A stretch of 31,729 bases of DNA from a virus. The stretch lies in the IMG/VR virus record IMGVR_UViG_3300013132_000159, positions 1 through 31,729 of that record, one strand, 5' to 3'. Each line of letters opens with the position of its first letter. The stretch's first letter is position 1. Below are positions 2,149-31,729 of the stretch, piece by piece. Position numbers and translations under genes: made by a program. Below the pieces are notes generated by a model that saw only the letters and a list, made by a program, of their open reading frames with translations, was not told the origin of the DNA and did not search any database.

Positions 2149-4044
2149 TTGGGTCGTCGTCATATTCCGACTGAGGTTCGTGTCAGGTTTTTTAGCCTGT
2201 TGGACGATGGGTATTCGGTGTCGGAGGCTGCGGCGACGGTTGGGGTGCGCCGCGAGACTGGTTATGAGTGGCGTCGCAACGGGTTTGAGTCGGTTGTTGC
2301 GAATGGTCAGAAGAATCGGCAGAAGCGTGTCGATTTGTCGTTGTCTGATCCGGTGCGTCCTGACCGGTTGTGCGATGAGGCTGTTCGGGCGTTGGATGAT
2401 TTCGACTATTTCCGGTTGCGGTATTTGGGTCGGCGTCCTACACCGTGGCAGGCCGACGCCGCCCTACAAGTTGTGTCATGGTTGAATAGTGAAGATACCG
2501 AGTATGCGGTTATCAACTGTCCTCCAGGGTCGGGGAAATCGACCCTGTTTACCAACGACTTGTTGTTGTGGTTGATTTGCCGCGAACGGTCGATTCGTAT
2601 TCTGATCGGTTCGTCTACGCAACGGTTGGCTGAGAACTATTCCAATCGTCTGCGCCGCATGTTGGAGCGGGTCCGTCCCCTACCGGAGAATCCGTTGCAG
2701 GGACGGCCTCTTGCTGCTGAGGCTGCGTTGGCTCAGGACTTCGGACGGTTCCGCCCTCAGGCCGCATCGGGTGAGATGTGGACACGAAGCCAGTTCACGG
2801 TCGTCCAACATGATCTTGATGCCGTGGAAGATAAGGAACCGACCGTCACCGCATATGGGATGGACGCAGAATTCTTGGGTCATCGTGCGAACCTTGTGAT
2901 TTGGGACGACCTTGTGACCCGGAAGGTGTTGCGTTCCGGCGAACTCATCGAAAATCAGCGGAATTGGTGGGTGGAAGAAGGCGAAACTCGGTTGGAGCCG
3001 AGCGGTTTGTTGTTGTTGCAAGGCCAACGGATGGGTGCCGACGACCTTTATCGTTACTGTTTGGATATGGTACTTGATGAGGATGAGCAGGCGGTGATGG
3101 ATCGCCGCCACAAGTACCGGCATGTGATGTACCCAGCACATTACGAAGATAAATGTGACGGTAAGCATGTGAAAGATATGCCTGCGTGGCCGGATAGTTG
3201 CATGTTGGACCCTGTGCGACTCCCTTGGGGTGGCAGCAAGGGCCTCGCGACGATCCAACGGAACCGTGGCGACGCCTACCGGGTCCAATATCAACAAGAA
3301 GATGTAGACCCCGCCGAGGTTCTGGTCCCAAAACTGTGGGTCGATGGGGGCACAGACCACCAGACCGGCGAAATCTACCCTGGTTGTTGGGACAAGGGCC
3401 GAGAAATCGCTGAGGTCCCCGCCGGTTTGGCCCCACCGTTGTTGTCGATTGCGACGGCTGACCCGTCACCAACAAAGTTCTGGTCGATTCAATGGTGGTT
3501 GGTGCAACCTGCGACGAATCAACGGTTTTTGCTGGATTTGATTCGCCAATCAATGGACGCCCCCGACTTTTTGGATTGGAATGCGAACGCTGGCCGGTTC
3601 TTCGGGGTGATGGAAGAATGGCAGGAACGGTCAGCGGAGATTGGTTTCCCGATTTCTCATTGGATCGTGGAAATCAATGCGGCTCAACGGTTCTTGTTGC
3701 AGTATGACCATGTGCGCCGTTGGCAACGTCAACACAATGTGCAGATTGTGGGCCATTCAACTCATCGGAACAAGACCGACCCTGACTTTGGGGTGCAGAC
3801 AGTCAAGAATCTGTACCGTTTTGGGCAGGTCCGGTTGCCTGGCGGGGTGTTGACAGGACGTATCGCAGCGTTGAAACTGGTCGATGAAGTTACTAGATAC
3901 CCTCAAACTTCTACCGATGACTGTTTGATGGCACAATGGTTCCTTGAACACCAGTTGGCAAATGGTAGTTTGATGCGTATTACAGACCATGAACCTGTAA
4001 TGTTGCGTAGACCATCTTGGATGAGAAAGCGGGTGTTTGCATAA
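2149..4044 (+). CDS. terL: Terminase large subunit with N-terminal helix-turn-helix
   Basis: DNA-packaging motor that translocates DNA into the prohead through the portal and cuts concatemers. From the TTG at 2149 it is 631 aa. Residues about 5-42 form a homeodomain-like helix-turn-helix. The ATPase domain has Walker A PPGSGKST (125-132) and Walker B LVIWDD (249-254). The RNase H-like nuclease has candidate acidic residues D438, E508 and D590/D591. TTG 2149 is preferred because GGAGG lies 5 nt upstream and the HTH follows at once. The in-frame GTG at 2095 would add 18 residues but lacks a good ribosome-binding site. No separate small terminase gene is visible, so the HTH may supply DNA recognition. 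The stop overlaps the next ATG (TAATG). Confidence 0.93.
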   Translation: MGRRHIPTEVRVRFFSLLDDGYSVSEAAATVGVRRETGYEWRRNGFESVVANGQKNRQKRVDLSLSDPVRPDRLCDEAVRALDDFDYFRLRYLGRRPTPWQADAALQVVSWLNSEDTEYAVINCPPGSGKSTLFTNDLLLWLICRERSIRILIGSSTQRLAENYSNRLRRMLERVRPLPENPLQGRPLAAEAALAQDFGRFRPQAASGEMWTRSQFTVVQHDLDAVEDKEPTVTAYGMDAEFLGHRANLVIWDDLVTRKVLRSGELIENQRNWWVEEGETRLEPSGLLLLQGQRMGADDLYRYCLDMVLDEDEQAVMDRRHKYRHVMYPAHYEDKCDGKHVKDMPAWPDSCMLDPVRLPWGGSKGLATIQRNRGDAYRVQYQQEDVDPAEVLVPKLWVDGGTDHQTGEIYPGCWDKGREIAEVPAGLAPPLLSIATADPSPTKFWSIQWWLVQPATNQRFLLDLIRQSMDAPDFLDWNANAGRFFGVMEEWQERSAEIGFPISHWIVEINAAQRFLLQYDHVRRWQRQHNVQIVGHSTHRNKTDPDFGVQTVKNLYRFGQVRLPGGVLTGRIAALKLVDEVTRYPQTSTDDCLMAQWFLEHQLANGSLMRITDHEPVMLRRPSWMRKRVFA

Positions 4045-4177: not shown

Positions 4178-5995
4178 GTGAAGTCTGCCGGTGACATTCT
4201 CTCGTTGGTTCACCAACGGAAGAATGATTATGGGGAGACACAGCAGCGGATGGAAGAAATCCGTGCGCTCTACAACGGGCAGATGGAAGTTGACCTGCCC
4301 GAGTTGCAGGAGAATGAGCGTGCGGTAGCAGCGAACCTCGCCCAGTTGGGTATCGACCAGATGGCAATGCGGGTCGGTTCGGTGATTCCTTATGTGTCGT
4401 TTGCTGTGGATCGTTTGGGTTCGCAGTCTGCTCGCGATAAGGCGCGCACGAAGCGTGATGTGGTCTTGCATCATTGGTGGCCGAAGTCGCGTGTAACGTC
4501 CCATGTTATTCCCCGGCGGGCACGTTGGTTCTTTGCGTTTGCGACCGCTCCGGTGATGCTCCGACCGAACGGTGAGGGTGTCCCCTGTTGGTATGAACGT
4601 CATCCGATTGGGACGTTGGCGGCTCCGTTGACGCAGATCGGAGATATTGTTCCTCCGAACGTCGCGTTTGTGTTCAAGAAGTCTGGTGCGGAGTTGATGC
4701 GGGATTACCCGGATCAGATGTTCCGTATTGTGGGTCGGGGTACTCTGCAACCGTATTACGAAGTTGTTGAGTATGTTGATGATGAGCAGATCACTTGTTT
4801 GGTGATTGGCAGTTCGTCTGTTGACACCCCGTATCTGCCGCCGCAGGGCAGCCCTTCTGAAGTTCTGCACACGATGCCGAACCGGGCTGGTATCCCGCTG
4901 TGTGTTGTGCCTGGACGTATCACGTTGGATCGTCCTCTCGGACAGTTCGACGGGCTGATTGGCGCTTACCAGTTGCAGGCCCGTCTGATGGCGCTCTACA
5001 CGATTGCTCAGGAACGTGCGGTGTTCCCCGAGACTTGGATTCAGTCGCCGCCGGGTATGCCCCGTGCGGAAGTGTTGACGAACGCCGATCCGAAGGAAGG
5101 TGTGGTCGGTGAGATCGTTGGTGGCAACATCCAGAAGTTGGATATGTCACCGTCGCCTATCACCACGAATCTGATTGACCGGCTTGAATACATTGAACGA
5201 GCGTCGGGTGCTGTACCCGCCGAGTTCTCCGGTCAGTCGTCCAGCAACATCCGTACTGGCCGTCGTGGCGATGCGGTCATGTCTGCTGCGGTTGATTACC
5301 GTTTGCAGGAAGCACAGATCATCTTTGAGCAATCGTTGATGGAAGAAAACAAGATTGCGATTGCGATTGCGAAGTCGTACGGGTCTGGCCGTCAGTTCTC
5401 TATGTATGCGCCTGATCGTGGCAAACTCAATTACAAAGTTGATATCTTTGATGGAGATGATACGCATGAGGTCCGGTACGCTTACGCTGGGGCTGATGCG
5501 AATAGTTTGACGATTGCCGTCGGTCAGAAGTTGGGTCTGGAAGTTCTGTCGCGTGAAACTGCGATGGCTCTTGATCCGCTGGTCACAGATGTTGAGGCTG
5601 AGAAGGATCGTATTACTTCTGAGGCTGTGCAACGAGCGTTTCTTTCTTCGATTCAGGCGCAGGCCGCGAATCCTGATGCTGCTTGGCAGCCGATGGATTT
5701 CGCCCGGTTCGGTGAATTGATTGAGACTGATCGTATGAATGTGTATCAGGCTGCGATGCAAGTGAATCGTGAGGTTCAGGAACGTCAGCAGGCTCAAGCG
5801 CAGGGGATGATGCGGGGTCCTGAGAGTCAGCCTGGGTTGGCGATGCCAGGTGCGCCGGGTTCTCCGGTGCCTCCTGCGATTCAGGGTGCGAACCCGTCGT
5901 TGGGGAATCTGACTTCGATGCTTGCTGGTTTGCGTATGCCGCAGATGCAGACGGCTGCTGAACGGGCACCGTTGGGCGCTCCGGGGATGGTCTGA
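4178..5995 (+). CDS. Portal protein
   Basis: A 605-aa protein directly after the terminase, the usual portal position and size. The N-terminal half is alpha/beta with early charged helices, the centre (about residues 240-330) resembles the wing/stem of Gp6/SPP1-like portals, and residues about 490-605 are a Gln/Met/Pro/Gly-rich flexible tail. It forms the dodecameric ring through which DNA enters and to which the tail attaches. The GTG at 4178 follows GAGGAAGAAGGG at a workable distance. The stop overlaps the next gene (TGATG). The portal call rests mainly on position, length and overall sequence character. Confidence 0.82.
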   Translation: MKSAGDILSLVHQRKNDYGETQQRMEEIRALYNGQMEVDLPELQENERAVAANLAQLGIDQMAMRVGSVIPYVSFAVDRLGSQSARDKARTKRDVVLHHWWPKSRVTSHVIPRRARWFFAFATAPVMLRPNGEGVPCWYERHPIGTLAAPLTQIGDIVPPNVAFVFKKSGAELMRDYPDQMFRIVGRGTLQPYYEVVEYVDDEQITCLVIGSSSVDTPYLPPQGSPSEVLHTMPNRAGIPLCVVPGRITLDRPLGQFDGLIGAYQLQARLMALYTIAQERAVFPETWIQSPPGMPRAEVLTNADPKEGVVGEIVGGNIQKLDMSPSPITTNLIDRLEYIERASGAVPAEFSGQSSSNIRTGRRGDAVMSAAVDYRLQEAQIIFEQSLMEENKIAIAIAKSYGSGRQFSMYAPDRGKLNYKVDIFDGDDTHEVRYAYAGADANSLTIAVGQKLGLEVLSRETAMALDPLVTDVEAEKDRITSEAVQRAFLSSIQAQAANPDAAWQPMDFARFGELIETDRMNVYQAAMQVNREVQERQQAQAQGMMRGPESQPGLAMPGAPGSPVPPAIQGANPSLGNLTSMLAGLRMPQMQTAAERAPLGAPGMV

Positions 5996-16294: not shown

Positions 16295-16668
16295 GTCTTT
16301 CTAACCATGCCGAGAATGCTTTTGCAAACGCTCTGCGGGGCGGTGGCAACGGGTCGAATGTGACGGCTCCCGCTGCGCTGTATGCGAAGTTGCACACGGG
16401 CGCAGCGGGTGAGGATGGTACGAGCAATGCTGCTGCGACCACGACTCGCGTTGAGGTTCAGTTCGGTGCTGCGTCGAACGGTGTGATTTCGTTGTCGAAC
16501 AGCCCGTCGTGGACGAACCTTGCGAATGCCGAAACGATTTCCCACATTTCGATTTGGGATAACAGTACGGCTGGTAACTGTTGGGGCGATGGGGCGCTTA
16601 CGTCGTCGGTGACTGTGGGTGTCGGTGACACTCTGACGATTAGTGCCTTTACGCTCACCATGACGTAA
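16291..16668 (+). CDS. Beta-sandwich virion or tail-associated protein (125 aa)
   Basis: The sequence has the order seen in a widespread small phage tail-protein family. ALYAKLHTGAAGEDG comes near residues 28-42, a variable beta region follows, then SWTNLANAETISHISIWDN (about 71-89), GDGALTSSVTVGVGDTLTI and a final strand. Such proteins are found beside fibres and adhesins and probably form a beta-sandwich attachment unit. ATGA overlap with the upstream gene and TAATG overlap with the adhesin gene support co-translation. Confidence 0.65.
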   Translation: MSLSNHAENAFANALRGGGNGSNVTAPAALYAKLHTGAAGEDGTSNAAATTTRVEVQFGAASNGVISLSNSPSWTNLANAETISHISIWDNSTAGNCWGDGALTSSVTVGVGDTLTISAFTLTMT

Positions 16669-18200
16669 TGGCAGTTTCCGTTGCGTCAGCCCTGAATGTT
16701 GCAGGGTCGGATACTGACGCAAGGGATTATACGACTGCATCATGGACCCCTACCGCGGGGAAGGTGTACCTGGTTGCGTTTGCGGTCCATGACTTGGGCG
16801 GGTCGCCGCTGGTCCCTTCGATCAGCGGCAACAACATCACTTGGTCTCGGGTCGGCAACGACGTCGGCGGTAATGTTACCCAACCGGCGATGGCCGTATG
16901 GGCCGGGTATGCGGATTCGTCCGCGTCGGCTGGGTCGATTACTTTCTCTGGTTGCGTGCCGTCCGGGCAGACTGCCGACGGCGCGATTTGGGGTATTGCA
17001 GAACTTACTGGTGTTGGGCGTGGTACTGATCTTGGTTTCGTCCAATCTGCTGTTGGTTCTACCACCGCCGACACGCTGACTGTCACGCTGAATGCGTTTG
17101 CTTCTGCGGGTAATGCTGCTGCCGCATGGTTCATCTCGTATGACAACGCTGGTGGCGCAATCACTAATACTGCTGGCACCGGTTTTGCGATCACGACAGG
17201 ACTGGACGCGCAGCAGGCCACCGGCGGCGACAGGATGCGTTTGTCGTTCCAGTTTCGGAGCGATAACGATACGTCGGTTGATGTAACTGCTTCTTCTGCG
17301 AATGATCGGCTGTCGATGCACGCCGTTGAGATTCGCGCAGCAGTTACGTATACGCGCGATGCGACCATTGCCGGTGATGGTTCTCTTTCCGCAACTGCTT
17401 TCCGCACCCGGTTCTTTTCTGCGTCGGTTGCGGGTGATGGTGCTTGGTCCGCTACTGCTGTCGTCACTCGTTTCCGTTCTGCGGCTATCGCCGGGAACGG
17501 CGACTGGTCTGCCACGGGGGTACGCACACAGTTCTTCTCTGCGGCTATCGCTGGTAACGGTGACTGGTCTGCTAGCGCCGCGATCACAAAGTCGGCTTCT
17601 GCGGCTATTGCCGGGAACGGTGATTGGTCAGCCACCATCGTCAGAAGTGGTGTGCGCGATGCTGCTATCGCCGGGGCTGGTGAATGGTCTGCTACCGCCG
17701 TAGCCACTCGGTTTGTTGAGGCTGCTGTCGTCGGGAATGGCGACTGGTCGGCTAGCGCAACAGTCACTAACTTTGCGATAGTTGATATTGCTGGCAGCGG
17801 AGATTGGTCGGCTTCGGTTACCGTCACCCGGTTTGTTGTCGCGGCTGTTGCTGGCAATGGGGATTGGTCGGCGTCTACGTCCGTAACCCGGTTTGTGTCG
17901 GGGGAGATTGTCGGGTTTGGTTTCTGGTCAGCCACTAACTTCGGTACGAAGTTTGCGATTGCTTCGATTAGTGGGTCTGGTGAGTGGCAGACGACGTTTG
18001 TTCGTACTGCTGTCGTTGTTGCGGCCATTGCTGGTAACGGTGCTTGGTCTGCGACATTGGGACGAGTTGGGGGTGTATCCGAACCTACGTTTGGTGGTAC
18101 CCCCTATTCGCAACGCGAGTTGGATAAACAAGTTTACGATGAACGGCTGGCAAGGATCATCGCTGACGATGACGAGGTGCTGTTGTGTCTGTTGACGTAG
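16668..18200 (+). CDS. Repeat-containing tail adhesin/fibre (510 aa)
   Basis: Residues 1-225 form a beta-rich, lectin-like domain. Residues about 230-470 consist of twelve tandem 20-residue repeats with core AAIAGNGDWSAT followed by a variable TRF-type half. The Gly-[ND]-Gly-x-Trp-Ser-Ala core is nearly invariant while the other half varies. The C-terminus (about 471-510) contains PYSQRELDKQVYDERLARII. Repeats of this type make stiff beta-solenoid or trimeric shafts in phage fibres, so receptor contact is likely. The 60-nt period in DNA may allow repeat-number change by recombination. The stop region overlaps the next gene by 16 nt. Confidence 0.72.
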   Translation: MAVSVASALNVAGSDTDARDYTTASWTPTAGKVYLVAFAVHDLGGSPLVPSISGNNITWSRVGNDVGGNVTQPAMAVWAGYADSSASAGSITFSGCVPSGQTADGAIWGIAELTGVGRGTDLGFVQSAVGSTTADTLTVTLNAFASAGNAAAAWFISYDNAGGAITNTAGTGFAITTGLDAQQATGGDRMRLSFQFRSDNDTSVDVTASSANDRLSMHAVEIRAAVTYTRDATIAGDGSLSATAFRTRFFSASVAGDGAWSATAVVTRFRSAAIAGNGDWSATGVRTQFFSAAIAGNGDWSASAAITKSASAAIAGNGDWSATIVRSGVRDAAIAGAGEWSATAVATRFVEAAVVGNGDWSASATVTNFAIVDIAGSGDWSASVTVTRFVVAAVAGNGDWSASTSVTRFVSGEIVGFGFWSATNFGTKFAIASISGSGEWQTTFVRTAVVVAAIAGNGAWSATLGRVGGVSEPTFGGTPYSQRELDKQVYDERLARIIADDDEVLLCLLT

Positions 18201-23241: not shown

Positions 23242-24588
23242 ATGATGCCTTACACTCGTAAGGAGTACGCTGGTGCGGCTGCGGATACGACCCTAAGCAC
23301 CGGGATCAATAATGCGGATACGACAATCACCGTTGCTGCGGCTGCGGGTTGGCCGACTGGTGCGGCTGGGCCGTTTGCCATTGTGATTGATGCCGGTACG
23401 GCATCCGAGGAAAAGGTGCTGATTGCATCTCGGACGACAACGACTCTGACTGTCGCATCATCGGGCCGTGGATACGATAGCACTACTGCTACCAGCCATT
23501 CTTCTGGTGCGACTGTTAAGCATTGCCTCACCGCCGTCGATTTCGATGAGGCGAACTATTGGGTGACGGAACTTGCTGCTGCCGCAACTGCCGCCAACGA
23601 TTTGATTATCGCTGATGCGAACGATTCGTTGAGCCGTATCGCTAAGGGTGCGAACAGCCGAGTGTTGGCTGTGGATTCTGGTGGCGTGTTGGGTTACACG
23701 ACTGTCAGTTCTGCGATGATTACCGATGGGACTATCGCAACTGGCGACATTGCCGACAGCGCGATCACTTCCGCGAAGATCGCTGATGGGACCATCGTCG
23801 CTGGGGATATTGCTGATGGGGCGGTGACCAGCGCCAAGATTCTGGATGGTACTATCGCCACCGGAGACATTGCTGATAGTGCGATTACTTCTGCGAAGAT
23901 CGCTGATGGCACGATTGCAACCGCAGACATTGCTGATAGTGCGATTACTTCTGCGAAGATCGCTGATGGCACGATTGCAACCGCAGACATTGCTGATAGT
24001 GCGATTACTTCTGCGAAGATCGCTGCGAATGCGGTGACCCAAGCGAAGGTCGCGTCGGGTTATCGGTTCACGTTTACTGGTACGTCGGCCCCGTCGTCGC
24101 CTTCCGAGGGTGATCTGTGGTACGACACCACCAACGATGACCTGCTTGCTTATCACGGCACGCAATGGCGCAAGCCGTGGACGATGCCGTGGGGCGTGCA
24201 GGGGTACGCAGAGCGGACTAGCACGCAGTCGCTCTTGGCTGGGATGAACGACCTAACCTCTCTGTCGGTCACCTACACGGCAATCGCGAACCGCCGCATC
24301 CGCATCACGGCGCACGCGCACGTTAACCCTGCCACCAACGACCAGACCGGCTACCTGGCAATCCGCGAGAGTTCGACAACGCTCAACTTGAACCAGCAAT
24401 GGCTCAACTCGTCTTTGATTGCCGAAACGATGATCGTGCAAGTTGTCATCACGCCGACGGCAGGCTCCAAGACCTACAAGGCTTCCTTCAACTTCAACGG
24501 TGCCGCCACCGGCACGCTGCAAGCGGCAAGCACGACGCCCGCGTTCATCCTCGTTGAGGACATCGGGCCGAACGGCAATCCGGCCTAA
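23242..24588 (+). CDS. Tail fibre with tandem repeat shaft and variable tip (448 aa)
   Basis: Double ATG at 23242 after AGGAG. Residues 1-100 form a beta-rich attachment domain (TTLTVASSGRGYDSTTATSH). Residues about 164-275 contain tandem copies of a unit reading GTIATADIADSAITSAKIAD, a trimeric fibre repeat. A linker GDLWYDTTNDDLLAYHGTQW (about 290-310) is common in bacteriophage fibres. The tip (about 320-448) is a compact beta domain likely to bind the receptor. The tip's DNA is richer in C-ending codons than the shaft, suggesting exchange. Confidence 0.8.
   Translation: MMPYTRKEYAGAAADTTLSTGINNADTTITVAAAAGWPTGAAGPFAIVIDAGTASEEKVLIASRTTTTLTVASSGRGYDSTTATSHSSGATVKHCLTAVDFDEANYWVTELAAAATAANDLIIADANDSLSRIAKGANSRVLAVDSGGVLGYTTVSSAMITDGTIATGDIADSAITSAKIADGTIVAGDIADGAVTSAKILDGTIATGDIADSAITSAKIADGTIATADIADSAITSAKIADGTIATADIADSAITSAKIAANAVTQAKVASGYRFTFTGTSAPSSPSEGDLWYDTTNDDLLAYHGTQWRKPWTMPWGVQGYAERTSTQSLLAGMNDLTSLSVTYTAIANRRIRITAHAHVNPATNDQTGYLAIRESSTTLNLNQQWLNSSLIAETMIVQVVITPTAGSKTYKASFNFNGAATGTLQAASTTPAFILVEDIGPNGNPA
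23865..24024 (+). repeat. Perfect 60-bp tandem repeats inside the fibre gene
   Basis: The sequence at 23881-23940 is repeated exactly at 23941-24000, and the perfect 60-bp period runs over about 160 nt from 23865 to 24024, with degenerate copies upstream from about 23731. The unit encodes 20 residues in frame. Exact DNA identity, beyond protein conservation, implies recent duplication. Confidence 0.9.
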
Positions 24589-25879: not shown

Positions 25880-26107
25880 ATGAGTACGTTCGGTGATCTG
25901 TTGGTTGACCCTGCGGATACCACCCCTTGCTTGGTGGGTGCTGCCATCGGTGCGTTGAGCGACGCTGACCGTAAGGCTTACGAGGCTGCGGTCGCAGCGG
26001 GGGTGACCCGTGAGCGTATCGCTATCGCATTCACCAAGTATGGTTTCCCGATGGCTGTCAGCAGCGTGAGTCGCCATCTCCGTGGGACTTGTCGATGCCC
26101 GAAGTGA
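25880..26107 (+). CDS. Small helix-turn-helix protein (75 aa)
   Basis: ATG 25880 is preceded by GGGGAGGA; the ATG at 25874 lies within 2 nt of that ribosome-binding site and is not preferred. A Cys near residue 17 (DTTPCLVGAAIGAL) and a SDADRKAYEAAVAAGVTRERIA-type helical stretch lead to SVSRHLRGTCRCPK at the end. This pattern is common in small DNA-binding proteins of actinophages: about 70 aa, helix pair, then RH-x-RG-x-C. Probably a transcriptional regulator. Its stop lies inside the start region of the phosphoesterase gene. Confidence 0.65.
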   Translation: MSTFGDLLVDPADTTPCLVGAAIGALSDADRKAYEAAVAAGVTRERIAIAFTKYGFPMAVSSVSRHLRGTCRCPK

Positions 26108-27186
26108 GCATTGAGTTCTCGTCGCTGCTTGCTCATTGTGAGCAATGCGGCAGACCATTCGCGCCGAAGTCTGCGTCGCATCGGTATTGCGAAACACAAT
26201 GCCGGTCTGATGCTGCGTCGCAGCGGGAACGGTCGGAGACTTTGCGTCGCAGGGAAACAGGGTTTGCGTGGCCTCCGGTTGTTCATGCAAAGCCGGTGGA
26301 AATCAAGGTGCCGGTCCGGTCGAAGAAGAAGCGGACGAGCCGGTGGCGTACTGCGGTGGTGTTGCCCGACCCGCAGATTGGTTTCTGGCGTGATCTTTAC
26401 GATGGGTCGTTGACTCCGTTCCACGATGAGCGGGCTTTGTCGATTGCGTTGCAGATTGTGGTCGATGAGGAACCTGATGTTGTTGTGTGGTTGGGTGACG
26501 TTTGTGATTTCGCATCGTTCGGCAGGTACCGGCAGGAGGCAGGGTTTGCGTTGACGGTCCAGCCGACCATTGATACGGCCCATGCGTGGATTGCGATGAC
26601 TGTCGCTGCGGCTGGCGAAGTCCGATTCTTGGAAGGCAACCACGATGCGCGTCTGCACACCGCAATGGTGGACAATGTGCAGGCTGCGGCGGGAGTGCGG
26701 CGGGCGAAATCAGGTCCCCATGAGTGGCCTGCTATGTCGTTGCCGTCGTTGTTGCGGCTAGATGAGATGAATGTCAAATACGTTGATGCGTACCCTGCTG
26801 GGGCTACTTATCTGAACGATGGGATTGCGTGCGTACATGGACGATTTCACGGGGCTAGGGCCATGCAGCAGAACCTTGATCGCGAGCAGGTGTCAATCAT
26901 CCAGGGTCATACGCATCATAAGCAAAGGGCTGCACGGACGCGAAACCTGCGCGGTAAGCCCGCGTTCGCGTTTGCATACTCGCCTGGCTGTCTCGCTCGG
27001 GTGGATGGTGCCGTGCCGTCGCGTAACTCGGCGGTAGATGCGTTCGGTAGGCCGGTGAAGTCGTGGGAAGATTGGCAGCAAGGACTGGCTGTCGTGCGTT
27101 TCGATGACCAAGATCGTTTCGCCTATGAGGACATTGACATTCTGGAAGGTTGGGCGATGCACCGAGGTCAGGAGTATTCGGCATGA
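26095..27186 (+). CDS. Calcineurin-like metallophosphoesterase with N-terminal zinc finger
   Basis: A 363-aa protein. The N-terminal treble-clef-like zinc finger (C15, C18, C32, C36) is followed by a basic linker with KKKR. The metallophosphoesterase core has the usual five blocks: PDPQIG (91-96), GDVCD (134-138), GNHD (181-184), VHG (247-249) and GHTHH (271-275). Block 1 has Q in place of the usual H of DxH. Such enzymes hydrolyse phosphoesters in nucleotides, nucleic acids or proteins with two metal ions; the zinc finger suggests nucleic-acid targeting. Start ATG 26095 gives 13 nt overlap with the upstream gene; GTG 26104 (GTGA overlap) is an alternative and neither has a strong ribosome-binding site. 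Confidence 0.85.
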   Translation: MPEVSIEFSSLLAHCEQCGRPFAPKSASHRYCETQCRSDAASQRERSETLRRRETGFAWPPVVHAKPVEIKVPVRSKKKRTSRWRTAVVLPDPQIGFWRDLYDGSLTPFHDERALSIALQIVVDEEPDVVVWLGDVCDFASFGRYRQEAGFALTVQPTIDTAHAWIAMTVAAAGEVRFLEGNHDARLHTAMVDNVQAAAGVRRAKSGPHEWPAMSLPSLLRLDEMNVKYVDAYPAGATYLNDGIACVHGRFHGARAMQQNLDREQVSIIQGHTHHKQRAARTRNLRGKPAFAFAYSPGCLARVDGAVPSRNSAVDAFGRPVKSWEDWQQGLAVVRFDDQDRFAYEDIDILEGWAMHRGQEYSA

Positions 27187-27368
27187 ATCCAACGAATCAT
27201 ATTGAGGAAGCGGCGGCTACATTGGCGCAGTCTGCATATCTGGTCGGCGTGTTCTATCAGGCTTTGAGGGATCAGCGGTTGCCGGATGTTCTCATTGATG
27301 GCATTGTGCGCGATTGGCATTATGCGATGTTGGAACTGGAAGATTGGTCTGAAGAAGTTGAGGACTGA
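27183..27368 (+). CDS. Small acidic helical protein (61 aa)
   Basis: ATG 27183 overlaps the phosphoesterase stop by 4 nt (ATGA). The 61-aa protein is helical and ends with an acidic tail (LELEDWSEEVED). No motif is recognised. It is the second gene of a run of small coupled genes between the phosphoesterase and the WhiB genes. Confidence 0.65.
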   Translation: MNPTNHIEEAAATLAQSAYLVGVFYQALRDQRLPDVLIDGIVRDWHYAMLELEDWSEEVED

Positions 27369-27369
27369 T

Positions 27370-27489
27370 TTGATTCCGCAATGCCCGGTGTGTTTCACGA
27401 TCCGGTATCCGGTGTTGGCTGATGAGAATGGGGAATGTCCGAAGTGTCATTGCAATCTGACCATTCGGTTCCGACTGGCGCAAGACTGA
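27370..27489 (+). CDS. Small zinc-ribbon protein (39 aa)
   Basis: TTG 27370 follows GAGGA of the upstream gene end at a good distance. The 39 residues contain CPVC and CPKC separated by 14 residues, then HC and basic/hydrophobic strands: a minimal zinc ribbon. Its last 55 nt overlap the next gene in another frame. The longer open frame back to 27286 lies wholly inside the previous gene and is not preferred. Confidence 0.55.
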   Translation: MIPQCPVCFTIRYPVLADENGECPKCHCNLTIRFRLAQD

Positions 27490-27722
27490 CGGCGATTCGG
27501 GGTGAGCGGTACGGTCATCCGTCTACAAACTTTGCTCGTATCGGTAGTATGTGGGAACCTATTTTGGGTGTTGATGTTTCACCGCAGCAAGTAGGGTTGT
27601 GTTTGATTGCGTTGAAGTTGGCTAGATTGATTGAAACTCCTGACGATCAGGACAGCATCCATGATCTTGCCGGGTATGCGGCGACGTTGGAGATGTTGGC
27701 TGGTCGTGAGCCGAGCGTGTGA
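27435..27722 (+). CDS. DUF6378-like protein (95 aa)
   Basis: The central part matches the phage and bacterial DUF6378 pattern: GERYGHPSTNFARIGSMWEPILG, VSPQQVGLCLIALKLARL, then DDQDSIHDLAGYAA. The family is small, helical and common in phages; its biochemical role is not established, though it is often discussed with nucleotide-metabolism genes. ATG 27435 is chosen because no later start precedes the conserved part except GTG 27444 and TTG 27450, all inside the zinc-ribbon gene. Confidence 0.75.
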   Translation: MSEVSLQSDHSVPTGARLTAIRGERYGHPSTNFARIGSMWEPILGVDVSPQQVGLCLIALKLARLIETPDDQDSIHDLAGYAATLEMLAGREPSV

Positions 27723-27729
27723 GGTTGTG

Positions 27730-27900
27730 ATGGCAGCGAAGAAGAAGCCGTGGCAGAAGCCTTCTCCGAAGAAGGCACCGGGGAAGAAGTTGTCGGATGC
27801 GGAGCGGGCGAAAGCCGAGCGGTATGCGAAGAAGGCTGGCCGTCCGTACCCAAATCTTGTAGATAACATGCGTGTAATCAAGGAGCGGAAGAATGGCTAA
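27730..27900 (+). CDS. Lys-rich basic protein (56 aa)
   Basis: ATG 27730 follows GAGG near the previous stop; the longer open frame to 27631 lies within the DUF6378-like gene. The 56 residues are highly basic in the first half (AAKKKPWQKPSPKKAPGKKL), with a helical RYAKKAGRPYPNLVDNMRV second half. It is probably a DNA- or RNA-binding virion or nucleoid protein. Its end overlaps the next start by 8 nt. Confidence 0.65.
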   Translation: MAAKKKPWQKPSPKKAPGKKLSDAERAKAERYAKKAGRPYPNLVDNMRVIKERKNG

Positions 27901-28201
27901 GACTCCTGCGTGGCAGCGTAAGGAAGGTCAGGACCCGAAGGGTGGCCTGAACGACAAGGGCCGTGCGTCCTACAAGAAGGAGACTGGCGGAACGTTGAAG
28001 TCGCCGGTCAAGTCGGGTGACAATCCTCGGCGTGCTGCGTTCCTGGCCCGAATGGGCAACATGCCTGGCCCGGAGCGTGACAAGAACGGCAAGCCGACTC
28101 GTCTGCTTCTGTCGTTGCAGGCTTGGGGTGCGAGCAGCAAAGCCGATGCGAAGAAGAAGGCTGCGGCCATCTCGGCTCGGAACAAGAACAAGAAGAAGTA
28201 G
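27893..28201 (+). CDS. Basic DUF6321-like protein (102 aa)
   Basis: Starts PAWQRKEGQDPKGGLNDKGR after MAKT and contains NPRRAAFLARMGNMPGP and the Lys-rich C-terminus KKKAAAISARNKNKKK. These match the DUF6321 arrangement common in phages and environmental sequences. The protein is strongly basic and probably binds nucleic acid; no activity is known. AAGGAGCGG precedes ATG 27893. A promoter candidate follows its stop. Confidence 0.72.
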   Translation: MAKTPAWQRKEGQDPKGGLNDKGRASYKKETGGTLKSPVKSGDNPRRAAFLARMGNMPGPERDKNGKPTRLLLSLQAWGASSKADAKKKAAAISARNKNKKK

Positions 28202-28230
28202 TTGCACCTGATGCAAGATGCTGCTACGCT
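28202..28230 (+). promoter_or_regulatory. Good sigma-70-type promoter before gene 28254
   Basis: TTGCAC (28202-28207), a 17-nt spacer and TACGCT (28225-28230), which fits the actinobacterial TAnnnT -10 pattern. A start near 28237 would leave a leader of about 17 nt before the GTG at 28254. It follows directly the stop of the DUF6321-like gene and would separately drive the SSB-WhiB-HNH gene set. Confidence 0.6.
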
Positions 28231-28253
28231 ACTTTGCAAAAGGGGAGGTAGTC

Positions 28254-28469
28254 GTGCTTGCATCGCTGCATCGGTTTCGTCCGAACCCTGTTCGGCCGGT
28301 AGAGTGCAGTCTGTGCGGGAGGCGTAAGGACACGCACGTTCCGAAGATTCGTTGCCCACATTGTAGGGCCTCGGTTTCCAGGGTCGCCGGGGTATGTAAC
28401 AATTGTGGGCAACTGGTGGGGGTAGAAGCCGCTAACCTCCCAGCGGCTCCCCCCACCGTTTCGCAGTAA
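28254..28469 (+). CDS. Three-knuckle zinc-ribbon protein (71 aa)
   Basis: GTG 28254 follows GGGGAGG with 5-nt spacing. Three CxxC knuckles (C18/C21, C34/C37, C48/C51) with intervening His make up one or two zinc ribbons, like small nucleic-acid-binding proteins. The C-terminus is Ala/Pro-rich and flexible. The frame extends upstream to 28218, but that start lies in the promoter region and is not preferred. First gene of a probable separate transcription unit. Confidence 0.7.
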   Translation: MLASLHRFRPNPVRPVECSLCGRRKDTHVPKIRCPHCRASVSRVAGVCNNCGQLVGVEAANLPAAPPTVSQ

Positions 28470-28488
28470 CACAATCATGGGAGGAAGC

Positions 28489-28959
28489 ATGGATAACCCG
28501 GGACCGTTGGAATCGTTGGCTGTCGAAGCCCGCCGGTATCTGTTGCGATGCGAACCGACTGCGGTTCCGTTCGACATGGAAGATGCGGTGTCTGCCTACC
28601 TGATCTTGGTGGAGGTAGCGCAGACAGCAGCGACGTTGCGTGATGATCTTGCCGACATGATCGCTCATGGGATGCAAGGCAAGCGTGAGACTGTCGCTGG
28701 TGTGACGTTGGAGCGGAATCACAAGACGCCGCGTCGCAACGATTGGGACCACGAAGGTTTGCTGCGGCTGGTCGTGGACAGCCGTGTCGTTGATAAGCAG
28801 ACCGGCGAGATTGCGTCGGCACTAGACGTTCTGAAAAAGGTGTACCCGCTAAAGGGATACAATGCTAGGGTTACCGCTCTGCGGGACCTGGGCATCGACG
28901 TAGACGAGTTCTGCGTCACGGAAAGCACGGACCGCATGACCTTGCGTGTCCACAACTAA
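28489..28959 (+). CDS. Hypothetical helical protein (156 aa)
   Basis: ATG 28489 has GGAGG 4 nt upstream; the alternative ATG 28477 would place that ribosome-binding site inside the gene. The N-terminal half has long helices (AVSAYLILVEVAQTAATLRDDLADMIAHGM). The C-terminal half is mixed, with VTLERNHKTPRRNDWDHEG and DVLKKVYPLKGYNARVTALR. It lies just upstream of the SSB-like gene, where phages often encode recombination or replication proteins. No family is recognised with confidence. Confidence 0.65.
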   Translation: MDNPGPLESLAVEARRYLLRCEPTAVPFDMEDAVSAYLILVEVAQTAATLRDDLADMIAHGMQGKRETVAGVTLERNHKTPRRNDWDHEGLLRLVVDSRVVDKQTGEIASALDVLKKVYPLKGYNARVTALRDLGIDVDEFCVTESTDRMTLRVHN

Positions 28960-28976
28960 CAGGAAGGGCGAGAGAC

Positions 28977-29423
28977 ATGGCAGAGTTCATGGACCCCGGC
29001 GACCCGGGCGAATTGAAGGGTCAGATCAGGGCGAAGGACCTGATCAACAAGCCGTTGCTGATCCAGCCGGTGCGTGAGGACCGTGTGGAAGGGCAGGACG
29101 GGAAGCCGTGGCACTTCGTGGAGTGCAACGTCGCCGTGATCGGCATGGGCGGCGTTGAGGATCATGCTGCTGGTGTGCGTATCTCTTGGGTGCGTGTCCT
29201 CCCGCAGTTGACGCAGCGGATGAACGAGAGCCCGGGGACTTGGGTGGGTGGCATCCCGAAGGTGCAGCCCGACAACAGCGTGATCTTGACGCCGTTCGCA
29301 GAGCGGGGTCGTGCTGCGGCTACCGAATTGATGCCGAAGGTGAAGGCGTTGTTCGCCCCGGCTCCGGTCGCCCCGTCGGATGAGATGCCCCCGGCTTACG
29401 AGCCTGGTGAGGAGCCGTTCTAA
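28977..29423 (+). CDS. SSB-like protein with acidic tip (148 aa)
   Basis: ATG 28977 follows AGGAAGG. The middle (about residues 12-110) is beta-rich with alternating hydrophobics (PLLIQPVREDRVEGQDGKPW and HFVECNVAVIGMGGVEDH), consistent with an OB fold. The C-terminus is Pro/Ala-rich and ends in the acidic tip AYEPGEEPF, the kind of acidic, Phe-terminal tail by which single-stranded-DNA-binding proteins such as E. coli SSB recruit partners. It probably protects ssDNA in replication. The fold assignment is inferred, not motif-proven. Confidence 0.6.
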   Translation: MAEFMDPGDPGELKGQIRAKDLINKPLLIQPVREDRVEGQDGKPWHFVECNVAVIGMGGVEDHAAGVRISWVRVLPQLTQRMNESPGTWVGGIPKVQPDNSVILTPFAERGRAAATELMPKVKALFAPAPVAPSDEMPPAYEPGEEPF

Positions 29424-29764
29424 TGTCGTTCTTCGATCCGTCGTCGCCGTTTGAGGGTCCGTTGCAAGAGATTGCGGATGCCTTGGAGGCAGCGACGGAC
29501 GAGTTCGTGCGTGCTGCGAACGAGAACGCTTCCGCTGAGAATGCGTATCTGCGGGCGTTTCGCCGGGCGTGGCTGGAGTCCGATGGGATTCCAGCCACGA
29601 TCCGGTCGAAGCATTGCGACCAGTCGTATGAAGTGAACGAGGCGAAGTGTTCATGGAATCTGACTGACGCGCATCAGCGGGGCTGTAAACAGAAGTGTGA
29701 CGAGTTAACGAATCGGTTGATGGCAGCAATGTCATGGAATCGGATCACAGGTAAGCAGACCTGA
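29423..29764 (+). CDS. Hypothetical coiled-coil protein (113 aa)
   Basis: ATG overlaps the SSB-like gene stop (TAATG). An N-terminal FFDPSSPF is followed by a long Ala/Glu-rich helix (about 12-52, ADALEAATDEFVRAANENAS). A Cys/Trp-containing second part with KCSWNLTDAHQRGCKQKC and LMAAMSWNRI follows. The arrangement resembles small helical proteins that accompany phage recombination genes. It has four Cys, but not in a standard zinc pattern. Function is unknown. Confidence 0.6.
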   Translation: MSFFDPSSPFEGPLQEIADALEAATDEFVRAANENASAENAYLRAFRRAWLESDGIPATIRSKHCDQSYEVNEAKCSWNLTDAHQRGCKQKCDELTNRLMAAMSWNRITGKQT

Positions 29765-29777
29765 TGGGAGGAACATC

Positions 29778-30239
29778 GTGGGTCGTGTCTATGAGGGTGG
29801 GGAATACAGGGAGTTTCAGTTTCCCCTTCTGATCGAACCGATGGGTGACTGGACCCAACGGTCGTTGTGTGCAGAGAAGGTGCGTGCCGGGAAGGCACAT
29901 CCCGACGATTGGTTTCCCCGCCGGGGTTCAGATATCAACGTGATTCGTCGTGCGTTGGCTATTTGTGACGAATGCCCGGTGATTGAGCCGTGTCGTGAGT
30001 GGGCAGTAAAGCACAACGAGTACGGCATTTGGGGTGGTTGGACGAGCAAGCGGCTGCGTCAGGTGCATTACGAAACGTCGCGGCAATGCAAGCAATGCAT
30101 GTCGTACTTTGCTGTGGCGAACGAGTTGGTGGGTCAGCGTGCCCGCCCAAGTTTCTGTTCTGAGACATGCCGGTTGGAGCGGAAGCGGGCGATCAACCTT
30201 CGGTCGCGTGAACGTCGCCGCATCGAAGGGCGCGAGTGA
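29778..30239 (+). CDS. WhiB-like protein fused to a C-terminal zinc finger (153 aa)
   Basis: GTG 29778 follows GGGAGGA with 5-nt spacing. The WhiB domain has the four [4Fe-4S] cysteines C31, C63, C66 and C72 (CDECPVIEPC) and the signature GIWGG (83-87) with basic residues after it. A second part has C104, C107, C127 and C131, a CxxC...CxxxC zinc finger, ending in an Arg-rich tail. WhiB proteins bind sigma factors or DNA and regulate transcription in actinobacteria; phage copies redirect host genes. The added zinc finger may give DNA contact. Overlaps the next gene start (TGATG). Confidence 0.87.
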   Translation: MGRVYEGGEYREFQFPLLIEPMGDWTQRSLCAEKVRAGKAHPDDWFPRRGSDINVIRRALAICDECPVIEPCREWAVKHNEYGIWGGWTSKRLRQVHYETSRQCKQCMSYFAVANELVGQRARPSFCSETCRLERKRAINLRSRERRRIEGRE

Positions 30240-30571
30240 TGGACGAATCGACTGCGTTTCTGCACGACTGGTTTGATTCGTTGCCTCGGCGCGAGTGGTA
30301 CAACGATGCTGCGTGTGCGGGCCAGAAGTGGCAAGACTTTTTCGCACGTTCTACCCGAAAAGTGTTTTGTGACTTCTGCCGTTGCTGCCCGGTAGCCGAC
30401 GACTGTTTGGTCTATGCACTCCGGGTGGAGATTGACTTGTTGAATGGGCGGGGCGGTATGTACGGAGGTACTACCGCAGAGGAACGCCACCACTTCGCCC
30501 GAACGTTGAAAGACGTTGGCATTAGGGTAGGTGATTCGTACCGTTCCGATCTTCGGAAGGAGGATCGCTAA
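30239..30571 (+). CDS. Divergent WhiB-like protein (110 aa)
   Basis: ATG 30239 overlaps the stop of the first WhiB gene. Cluster cysteines are C26, C47, C50 and C56 (CRCCPVADDC); extra cysteines C44 and C49 flank them. WYNDAACAG at 20-28 is typical of WhiB. The signature GVWGG is replaced by GMYGG (73-77), so the key Trp that contacts the sigma factor in characterised WhiB proteins is Tyr here. Likely a paralogue or counterpart of the first WhiB, possibly with a changed partner. Confidence 0.82.
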   Translation: MDESTAFLHDWFDSLPRREWYNDAACAGQKWQDFFARSTRKVFCDFCRCCPVADDCLVYALRVEIDLLNGRGGMYGGTTAEERHHFARTLKDVGIRVGDSYRSDLRKEDR

Positions 30572-30939
30572 TGGCAGTCGCTTATGGTAAGGGTCCGAAG
30601 GGTAAGGCCACTCGGTTGCATTCTCTGGTCGTGCGGAAGCGTGGCCGGTGTCAGCGTTGCGGTTCGACTGCGAATCTGCAATGCGCTCACATCATCGGCA
30701 GGAAGTTCTCTGCGACTCGCACCGATGAGAACAACGCATGGTGTTTGTGTGCGTCGTGCCATGCCCGGTTCACGGATCATCCCGACGAGCATATGGCGTT
30801 CGTCGCTGAGACTATCGGCATGGATGCGTTCGATGTGTTGAAGCGGAAGGCGTTGGACAATTCTCGTCCGTGGCGCGAGTCGATGTGGCAAGAGGAAGTT
30901 GATCGTCTGCAAGCAATCATTGACAGTTGGGAGGGCTGA
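30571..30939 (+). CDS. HNH endonuclease (122 aa)
   Basis: ATG overlaps the WhiB stop (TAATG). The protein has a compact HNH core: C27/C30, CAHII at about 38-42, a central Asn in DENNAWC, and CLCASCH (58-64). The C-terminal helices include PDEHMAFVAETIG and the tail PWRESMWQEEVDRLQAI. The sequence type is that of NinG-like or general phage HNH nucleases that cut or nick DNA, here perhaps for recombination or packaging. The Zn-binding cysteines are intact, so it is probably active. Confidence 0.85.
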   Translation: MAVAYGKGPKGKATRLHSLVVRKRGRCQRCGSTANLQCAHIIGRKFSATRTDENNAWCLCASCHARFTDHPDEHMAFVAETIGMDAFDVLKRKALDNSRPWRESMWQEEVDRLQAIIDSWEG

Positions 30940-31142
30940 TGCATGTGTTCTGCGATCTGTGTCGCAAAGTGTTGGATGTGAAGTTGCCGCATTACCATCA
31001 GGAGATTGGGTGGACTCGGCCTCGGCATGGTGGCGGCACGAACGCTTTGGCGATGCGTGAAAAGACAGGCAAGTTGGCACACAAGGAGTGTGTGGAACTA
31101 GGCAAGGCGCGTATTCATCTAGCACAGGGGACAATGATTTGA
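30939..31142 (+). CDS. Small Cys/His protein (67 aa)
   Basis: ATG 30939 overlaps the HNH stop (TGATG). It has CDLC at about 5-8 and candidate third and fourth ligands (His in KLPHYH, and HKEC), a loose zinc-finger arrangement, in a basic 67-aa protein. The stop overlaps the next start (TTGA). Function is unknown. Confidence 0.6.
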   Translation: MHVFCDLCRKVLDVKLPHYHQEIGWTRPRHGGGTNALAMREKTGKLAHKECVELGKARIHLAQGTMI

Positions 31143-31633
31143 GGTTCTTCGTAGCGTTCGTCTTTGTTTGTGTGGCTGTCGTCGGATGGTGCATGTACCT
31201 GTGCGACGAGCAGGTTGATTCGATTGGTGGCGCGAAAGCGTGGACTATGGAGGTAGCGGGCGGTGATTGGCCGGACCTTATGGCGCAGGTTCTTTACGAA
31301 GTGGGTGAACAAGAGCAAGCAGAGCGAGTCAGACGCTATTACGAATCATTGGCGTATGTGGCACCAGTTGTCTCTCGTCCAGCAGAACGAGTGGTTACGA
31401 CAGGAGATTGCGAAGGAATACCGTCGTGGTTCCCCGCCGAGATTGCATGGCGAGAGTCACGATGCACCCGGGGAATCGACACCGGAAACGGGTATCTAGG
31501 CTACGCTCAGATCGCCCGGTTCCATTGGGATAACCTGTGTGTTGGGCTAGACTGGACGGACGAATCGCAGTACGACGAGTGTGTCGCTCTGCTGTGGAAC
31601 GGCGGTGCTGGTGCCCGCCATTGGGGAGGATGA
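31139..31633 (+). CDS. Membrane-anchored transglycosylase-like protein (164 aa)
   Basis: TTG 31139 follows AGGGGA with 7-nt spacing; the longer frame to 31088 would overlap the upstream gene by about 55 nt. Residues 2-22 are strongly hydrophobic (a signal anchor). Residues about 100-164 carry the Rpf/SLT-like pattern AEIAWRESR, GNGYLGYAQIARFHWDNLC and CVALLWNGG, with E106 as candidate catalytic Glu. It probably cuts peptidoglycan glycan strands from the membrane outer face, by analogy to resuscitation-promoting factors or lysozyme-like proteins. It lies outside the lysis cassette, so an early or entry-related role is possible. Confidence 0.7.
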   Translation: MRFFVAFVFVCVAVVGWCMYLCDEQVDSIGGAKAWTMEVAGGDWPDLMAQVLYEVGEQEQAERVRRYYESLAYVAPVVSRPAERVVTTGDCEGIPSWFPAEIAWRESRCTRGIDTGNGYLGYAQIARFHWDNLCVGLDWTDESQYDECVALLWNGGAGARHWGG

Positions 31634-31634
31634 C

Positions 31635-31670
31635 ATGAACATCAAATTGGCAACGGCGCGCGTGCGATGA
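31635..31670 (+). CDS. Eleven-codon leader ORF before the methyltransferase
   Basis: ATG 31635 has an excellent GGGGAGGA 4-5 nt upstream and encodes MNIKLATARVR. Its stop overlaps the methyltransferase ATG at 31667 (ATGA). The methyltransferase start has no good ribosome-binding site of its own, so translational coupling through this leader is likely. Confidence 0.4.
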   Translation: MNIKLATARVR

Positions 31671-31729
31671 CCCTCGCGCCCTACTACGCCGACGATCTCG
31701 TGACGCTCTACTGCGCGGAGGCTGAGGAG
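31667..31729 (+). CDS. DNA methyltransferase, N-terminal fragment
   Basis: The final 63 nt encode MTLAPYYADDLVTLYCAEAE and one further Glu. This is the typical start of phage and bacterial site-specific DNA methyltransferases, where PYY-DD-VTLYHGD leads to the catalytic motif. The gene continues beyond the window. C-ending codons (CTC, TAC, GCC, GAC) are much more frequent than in neighbouring genes, suggesting a recent acquisition. Likely modifies phage DNA to evade host restriction. Confidence 0.72.
   Translation, partial: MTLAPYYADDLVTLYCAEAEE

Follow-up and report, generated by a model that had tools for sequence, protein, structure and literature searches.

An overlapping pair of diverged WhiB-like genes in a virus of a likely actinobacterial host

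In bacterial WhiB-like (Wbl) proteins, the Trp residue of the turn motif is called invariant (PMC10245118; PMC6282962), and substitution of F31, F32, or W76 with Ala in WhiB3 abolishes binding to region 4 of sigma-A (PMC10245118). Among actinophages, WhiB genes have been reported in more than 23% of 2,951 genomes, with two homologs found in 182 (Sharma et al., 2021; PMC8612146), and the genome announcements of KingMidas and StarStruck each describe two WhiB genes. Published overexpression screens include two phages with paired WhiBs. In the case of Girr, gp57 was observed to be highly toxic to Mycobacterium smegmatis and the finger-bearing WhiB gp55 was absent from the toxic genes, in a screen given without protein levels (PMC11075535); of the LeBron pair, gp78 proved highly toxic, in contrast to gp77 (PMC13148394). 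The genome paper of Tweety notes gp57 as the only WhiB, and a heterotypic prophage defense is reported to act on the Tweety WhiB, with escape mutants carrying stop codons in that gene (earlier work cited in PMC8612146). Since gp57, with its single finger, is the only WhiB noted, these mutants suggest that Tweety can grow lytically without its finger WhiB.

The DNA analyzed here is the IMG/VR record IMGVR_UViG_3300013132_000159, a single viral entry of 31,729 bases, referred to below as the window over its whole length. Its phage genes, read left to right, include those for terminase, capsid, tail, and holin proteins and a glycosyltransferase, and two WhiB-like genes, A and B, lie near the right end (Table 1). 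The major capsid protein is ~41% identical to those of Streptomyces phages (e.g., Immanuel3) and the terminase is distant kin of Streptomyces phage terminases, a relationship that makes an actinobacterium the likely host. A DNA-level search of named phages returned no close relatives of the window; protein-level scans of bacterial genomes returned no confirmed relatives, so that no host or prophage was pinned down. A further contig, IMGVR_UViG_3300014720_004142, overlaps window positions 30,180–31,729, encodes a gene B product identical in amino acid sequence, and runs ~2.8 kb beyond the window end, where a DNA-methylase-like ORF is located; it probably represents a second assembly of this virus. 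At the other end of the window, the minus strand at 613–678 matches the Rfam family of type II hammerhead ribozymes, RF02276, with 54.7 bits against a gathering score of 37 (E 8e-9); the core letters CTGATGA and GAAA are present.

Table 1. Coordinates of the WhiB-like genes, their distinguishing elements, and the adjoining genes in the window.
Feature	Positions	Strand	Match or remark
Upstream neighbor, 113 aa, no assigned function	29423..29764	+	phrog_1389; 85% identical in the close relative (locus L004)
Gene A, WhiB-like, 153 aa, GTG start	29778..30239	+	PF02467, phrog_1333
Gene A finger, C104-x2-C107-x19-C127-x3-C131, basic helix after	30087..30170	+	C-terminal CKQC-x19-CSETC
Gene B, WhiB-like, 111 aa from GTG or 110 aa from ATG 30239	30236..30571	+	PF02467
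Gene B altered turn motif, GMYGG	30455..30469	+	sequence; GVYGG in L004
Downstream neighbor, HNH/NinG-like nuclease	30571..30939	+	start overlaps gene B stop

Genes A and B sit within a run of translationally coupled small genes. The GTG start codon of A is preceded by a good ribosome site (GGAGG), and B begins at either of two codons 3 bases apart, GTG 30,236 or ATG 30,239, across the stop codon of A (TGATG). The first-pass annotation had described two overlapping WhiB genes, and this description holds: both plus-strand ORFs score above the curated Pfam cut-off of 23.6 bits for PF02467 (49.7 bits for A and 39.3 bits for B), and each matches several PHROG WhiB families. The downstream neighbor matches HNH_2 (21.4 bits, cut-off 21) and phrog_5034 (E 1.6e-11). 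Scans of positions 27,000–31,729 yielded no promoter-like sites and 4 terminator-like sites against 3.7 expected, with no excess of either. Just upstream in the same gene run, an 83-aa ORF (28,218–28,469) with the pattern CSLCGRR...CPHC...CNNCGQ, 62% identical in the relative described below, is a possible zinc ribbon.

The cluster ligands of A are predicted to be C31, C63, C66, and C72, in the pattern C-xn-C-x2-C-x5-C and kept in relatives, and its turn motif, GIWGG, fits the G[V/I]W[G/A]G consensus. An extra zinc finger had been proposed at the C-terminus of A, and a CxxC-x19-CxxxC arrangement was indeed found there, with all four cysteines invariant in the alignment with the close relative and cluster F gp51. 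The finger resembles zf-FCS weakly (E 0.019, under the curated cut-off), this being Pfam's only match in the tail. The tail is predicted to form two strands followed by a helix (pLDDT about 55–92), with the cysteine pairs positioned in what we take to be the manner of a treble-clef finger. The model of A as a whole, built from a two-row alignment, is of low confidence and poor over the WhiB part, and its comparison with the PDB gave no useful match. The match to phrog_1333 covers residues 24–144 (E 1.3e-17), and the 306 named phage matches are all to mycobacteriophages, extending to residue 140 among the matches listed. By whole-protein sequence match, A can be assigned to the architecture of phrog_1333 and cluster F gp51—that is, a WhiB domain with a C-terminal finger.

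Gene B shares the ligand pattern (C27, C48, C51, and C57, all kept in the relative), with a pre-turn loop of 16 residues versus 10 in A. As first observed, the signature Trp is missing, with GMYGG replacing GVWGG. The strict bacterial motif is thus absent from B, as it is from the GVYGG-bearing relative, and it likewise fails to describe the annotated phage WhiBs Pacc40 gp53, Alderaan, DirkDirk gp75, and prophiGD22-1. Judged by sequence, B is a member of the WhiB profile lying outside the strict textbook Wbl definition. Its structural model is of fair confidence (pLDDT 73.7, pTM 0.66), and PDB matches 1–7 are all WhiB proteins in sigma-factor/RNA polymerase complexes, with E values from 0.029 to 2.9, none below 0.001; the best match (E 0.029) has a probability of 1.00. 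These matches support a WhiB fold for B without proving it. The cysteines said to have been gained near the cluster, Cys45 and Cys50, are present in B, but they are absent from its only close relative, and a second metal site formed by the two was rejected because they are not conserved there.

That relative is another IMG/VR virus, IMGVR_UViG_3300046007_005026, a 26,444-base contig (loci L004, L102, and L103) with the same gene order. Its counterpart of A is 51% identical and retains GIWGG and all four finger cysteines; its counterpart of B is 54% identical. The Tyr shared by the two B proteins indicates that the Trp-to-Tyr replacement is an old, retained feature, and the sequences place Cys45 and Cys50 as private to the window. 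Nucleotide comparison of A and B with the relative gave dN values of 0.40–0.48 and dS values of about 1.8–2.1, with silent change exceeding replacement change. The preservation of gene order and overlap in a relative only 51–54% identical, together with this excess of silent change, argues that the pairing is beyond chance.

When window positions 29,778–30,571 were compared with positions 3,570–4,318 of the relative's locus L004, A and B proved to be the least conserved of the shared genes (57% and 54% of aligned residues, respectively, versus 60–95%), whereas the genes flanking them on either side are far better conserved, at 85% and 82%. The other shared genes past position 26,000 average 82%, and the lower value for A and B is significant when residues are treated as independent (Fisher p 3e-17). 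Silent change is slightly higher in A and B as well, affecting 48% versus 38% of the codons for identical residues (p 0.03). The pattern looks like rapid protein change under constraint, and exchange of the A–B block possibly contributed to the divergence.

Comparison with the same relative also brought out features away from the pair. Window positions 17,365–17,713 and 23,767–24,048 match several offset places in the relative at the DNA level (e.g., 17,428–17,713 and 17,365–17,572), and these multiple matches suggest internal repeats in a large ORF (16,668–18,200) and a tail-fiber-like ORF (23,242–24,588). The relative's contigs contain no RF02276 hammerhead match. Near base 22,600 of the relative, at 2,590–2,672 on the minus strand of one of its loci (L103), there is a short tmRNA match of 83 bases and 65 bits, which might be the end of a host tmRNA gene serving as an attachment site; such a site would hint at a temperate virus.

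The described pair most like A–B is that of cluster F (Cheoctovirus), represented by Pacc40 gp51/gp53 and Girr gp55/gp57, in which a finger-bearing WhiB with Trp is followed by a smaller WhiB with a different aromatic residue in its place, on the same strand, in the same gene run, and with an HNH gene downstream. Unlike A and B, the two genes are separated by a gene of 161 aa noted as HTH; moreover, gp51 of Pacc40 has two fingers versus one in A, and gp53 and Girr gp57 have Phe where B has Tyr, with a shorter loop than that of B. Identity to the cluster F proteins is about 37% for A and 26% for B. Tweety gp57, also of cluster F, is closer to A in having a GIWGG WhiB domain and a single C-terminal finger; no second WhiB was seen in the 2.1 kb following it. 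In cluster L, LeBron gp77–gp78 and DirkDirk gp75–gp76 are directly adjacent, as are A and B, and one member is Trp-less with a long pre-turn loop, but the order is reversed (the GIRAG member comes first), the replacing residue is Arg rather than Tyr, and there is no finger. The WhiB genes gp48–gp49 of the Mycobacterium abscessus prophage prophiGD22-1 overlap and have Tyr for Trp (GIYGG and GIYGE), as in B, but Trp is missing in both members and neither has a finger. The bacterial proteins WhiB1, WhiB3, and WhiB7 share with A and B a four-Cys cluster site and a helical domain, both predicted in the phage proteins, and the cluster-side aromatics, which in the bacterial proteins bind sigma-A region 4; they differ in keeping strictly to the G[V/I]W[G/A]G motif, in lacking a zinc finger (WhiB7 has an AT-hook), and in low sequence identity.

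Two WhiB genes had been considered rare for one phage, a view contradicted by the 182 two-homolog actinophages already published, with which the present searches agree. Pacc40 gp53 alone matches 1,050 named phage records (1,376 places altogether). Of 80 loci fetched with the A-type alignment, 76 are of the cluster F mycobacteriophage type, and in every one of these 76 a GVWGG WhiB with a finger precedes, by ~1 kb and on the same strand, a GVFGG or GIFGG WhiB. The phages concerned are close kin, so that the 76 loci represent a single lineage rather than independent cases. The adjacent cluster L pair is found in 26 records at least 99% identical to DirkDirk gp75–gp76, LeBron gp77–gp78 included, and the prophiGD22-1 pair adds a further adjacent arrangement. 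A metagenomic virus unrelated to the one studied here (IMGVR 3300042807_000483) has two WhiB genes, at 4,911–5,246 and 5,246–5,560 of locus L006, that overlap by one base; both have GVWGG and both are without a finger. The A–B pair belongs, in diverged form, to an arrangement already known from phages. That a finger WhiB and a Trp-less WhiB occur together is not put forward as statistical evidence for a module, since Trp-less proteins are frequent among phage WhiBs (see below) and the exact combination was found in two lineages only.

Replacement of the motif Trp takes several forms in phages: it is Phe in cluster F gp53, in the Gordonia phages Getalong and Kuwabara, and in the Microbacterium phage TinyTimothy; Tyr in both prophiGD22-1 WhiBs; and Arg in the Streptomyces phage Alderaan and in DirkDirk gp75. 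By our count, the Trp is missing in about a third of the phage lineages of WhiB compared here. TinyTimothy, Alderaan, and DirkDirk gp75 also have the long pre-turn loop of B, and a tree joining B with these three equals the free tree in fit, within an alignment of 71 columns that holds few data. With so little signal, none of the groupings compared was rejected: p-AU values were 0.37 for A with gp51, 0.11 for B with gp53, and 0.53 for B with the long-loop Trp-less WhiBs. Loss of the Trp need not mean loss of activity, to judge by analogy with the highly toxic Girr gp57, which is of the Phe type (GVFGG) and 98.9% identical to Pacc40 gp53, and the toxicity of which may come through a non-sigma route.

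The reading we favor, and hold to be somewhat more probable than its competitors together, is that each of A and B binds a [4Fe-4S] cluster through its four ligand cysteines and attaches to the principal sigma factor of the host at region 4. Docking would take place through the cluster and the surrounding aromatics, beside the -35 element. The finger and basic tail of A would contact DNA or a partner and thereby direct the holoenzyme to chosen promoters, and B, with Tyr for Trp and a longer loop, would have an altered affinity or another sigma factor or partner, shifting host transcription. The positions of WhiB3 F31/F32 and W76 correspond to W45–F46 and W85 in A and to F35–F36 and Tyr76 in B, and a Trp precedes the first Cys in both (W25 in A, W21 in B). 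A role for A and B on the host sigma factor is reasonable because they keep most of the aromatic residues that form the interface with region 4 of sigma-A in the complexes of WhiB1, WhiB3, and WhiB7; the simplest reading of the sequences would have both proteins dock on the principal sigma factor, the binding of B differing in strength or partner. DNA targeting by the finger and tail of A is plausible by analogy, since the tail lies C-terminal to the WhiB domain, where WhiB7 has its AT-hook. The Tyr of B might weaken or end sigma binding, which the Trp-to-Ala change abolishes in WhiB3. The two proteins probably do different jobs instead of serving as spare copies. On the first-pass suggestion that the pair competes for the sigma factor or that its members regulate each other, the only related data are the published overexpression screens of Girr and LeBron.

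A different proposal, which we regard as unlikely, is that A, B, or both mainly repress a host whiB gene of the whiB2 type in the manner of WhiB TM4, blocking septation and superinfection in a dominant-negative takeover without productive use of the sigma factor. WhiB TM4 competes at the whiB2 promoter, producing a whiB2-mutant phenotype and superinfection resistance, as reported in two sources (PMC6282962; PMC8612146), and several phage WhiBs inhibit growth on overexpression; however, the sequences of A and B are remote from the WhiB TM4 type, and the proposal does not account for a separate partner with a finger. It is also rather unlikely that B has lost sigma binding and acts instead via an alternative sigma factor, a WhiA-like cofactor, or A itself, so modulating A. 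The Tyr at the motif position in both B and its relative, the effect of the WhiB3 substitution (PMC10245118), and the Streptomyces WhiB that works with WhiA (PMC7363131) would all suit such a role, but the remaining aromatic interface residues are kept, the replacing residue is itself aromatic, and the finger WhiB of Tweety occurs without an adjoining second WhiB. That A is a nuclease with an HNH-type C-terminal domain, as an old note on Pacc40 gp51 ('WhiB/HNH endonuclease') and a weak phrog_15471 HNH match (E 0.016) might imply, is very improbable given a tail made up of only the finger and basic helix, with no H-N-H catalytic residues seen in it and zf-FCS as its sole Pfam match.

Beyond docking of both proteins on the principal sigma factor, a wider proposal can be made, although we think it doubtful: a finger-bearing WhiB with Trp and a Trp-less WhiB could form a two-protein module under selection, recurring among actinophages that are not related to one another, with roles split at one sigma surface. 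If so, one protein of the module would steer the holoenzyme to phage promoters and the other would disable or redirect host transcription, with Tyr or Phe tuning the docking. In phage WhiBs, Phe, Tyr, or Arg often stands in place of the signature Trp, which descriptions of bacterial proteins treat as invariant. The A–B pair, together with the screens that found one WhiB of a neighboring pair toxic and the other not, raises the questions of whether sigma binding depends on this Trp and whether paired WhiBs divide the work between them.
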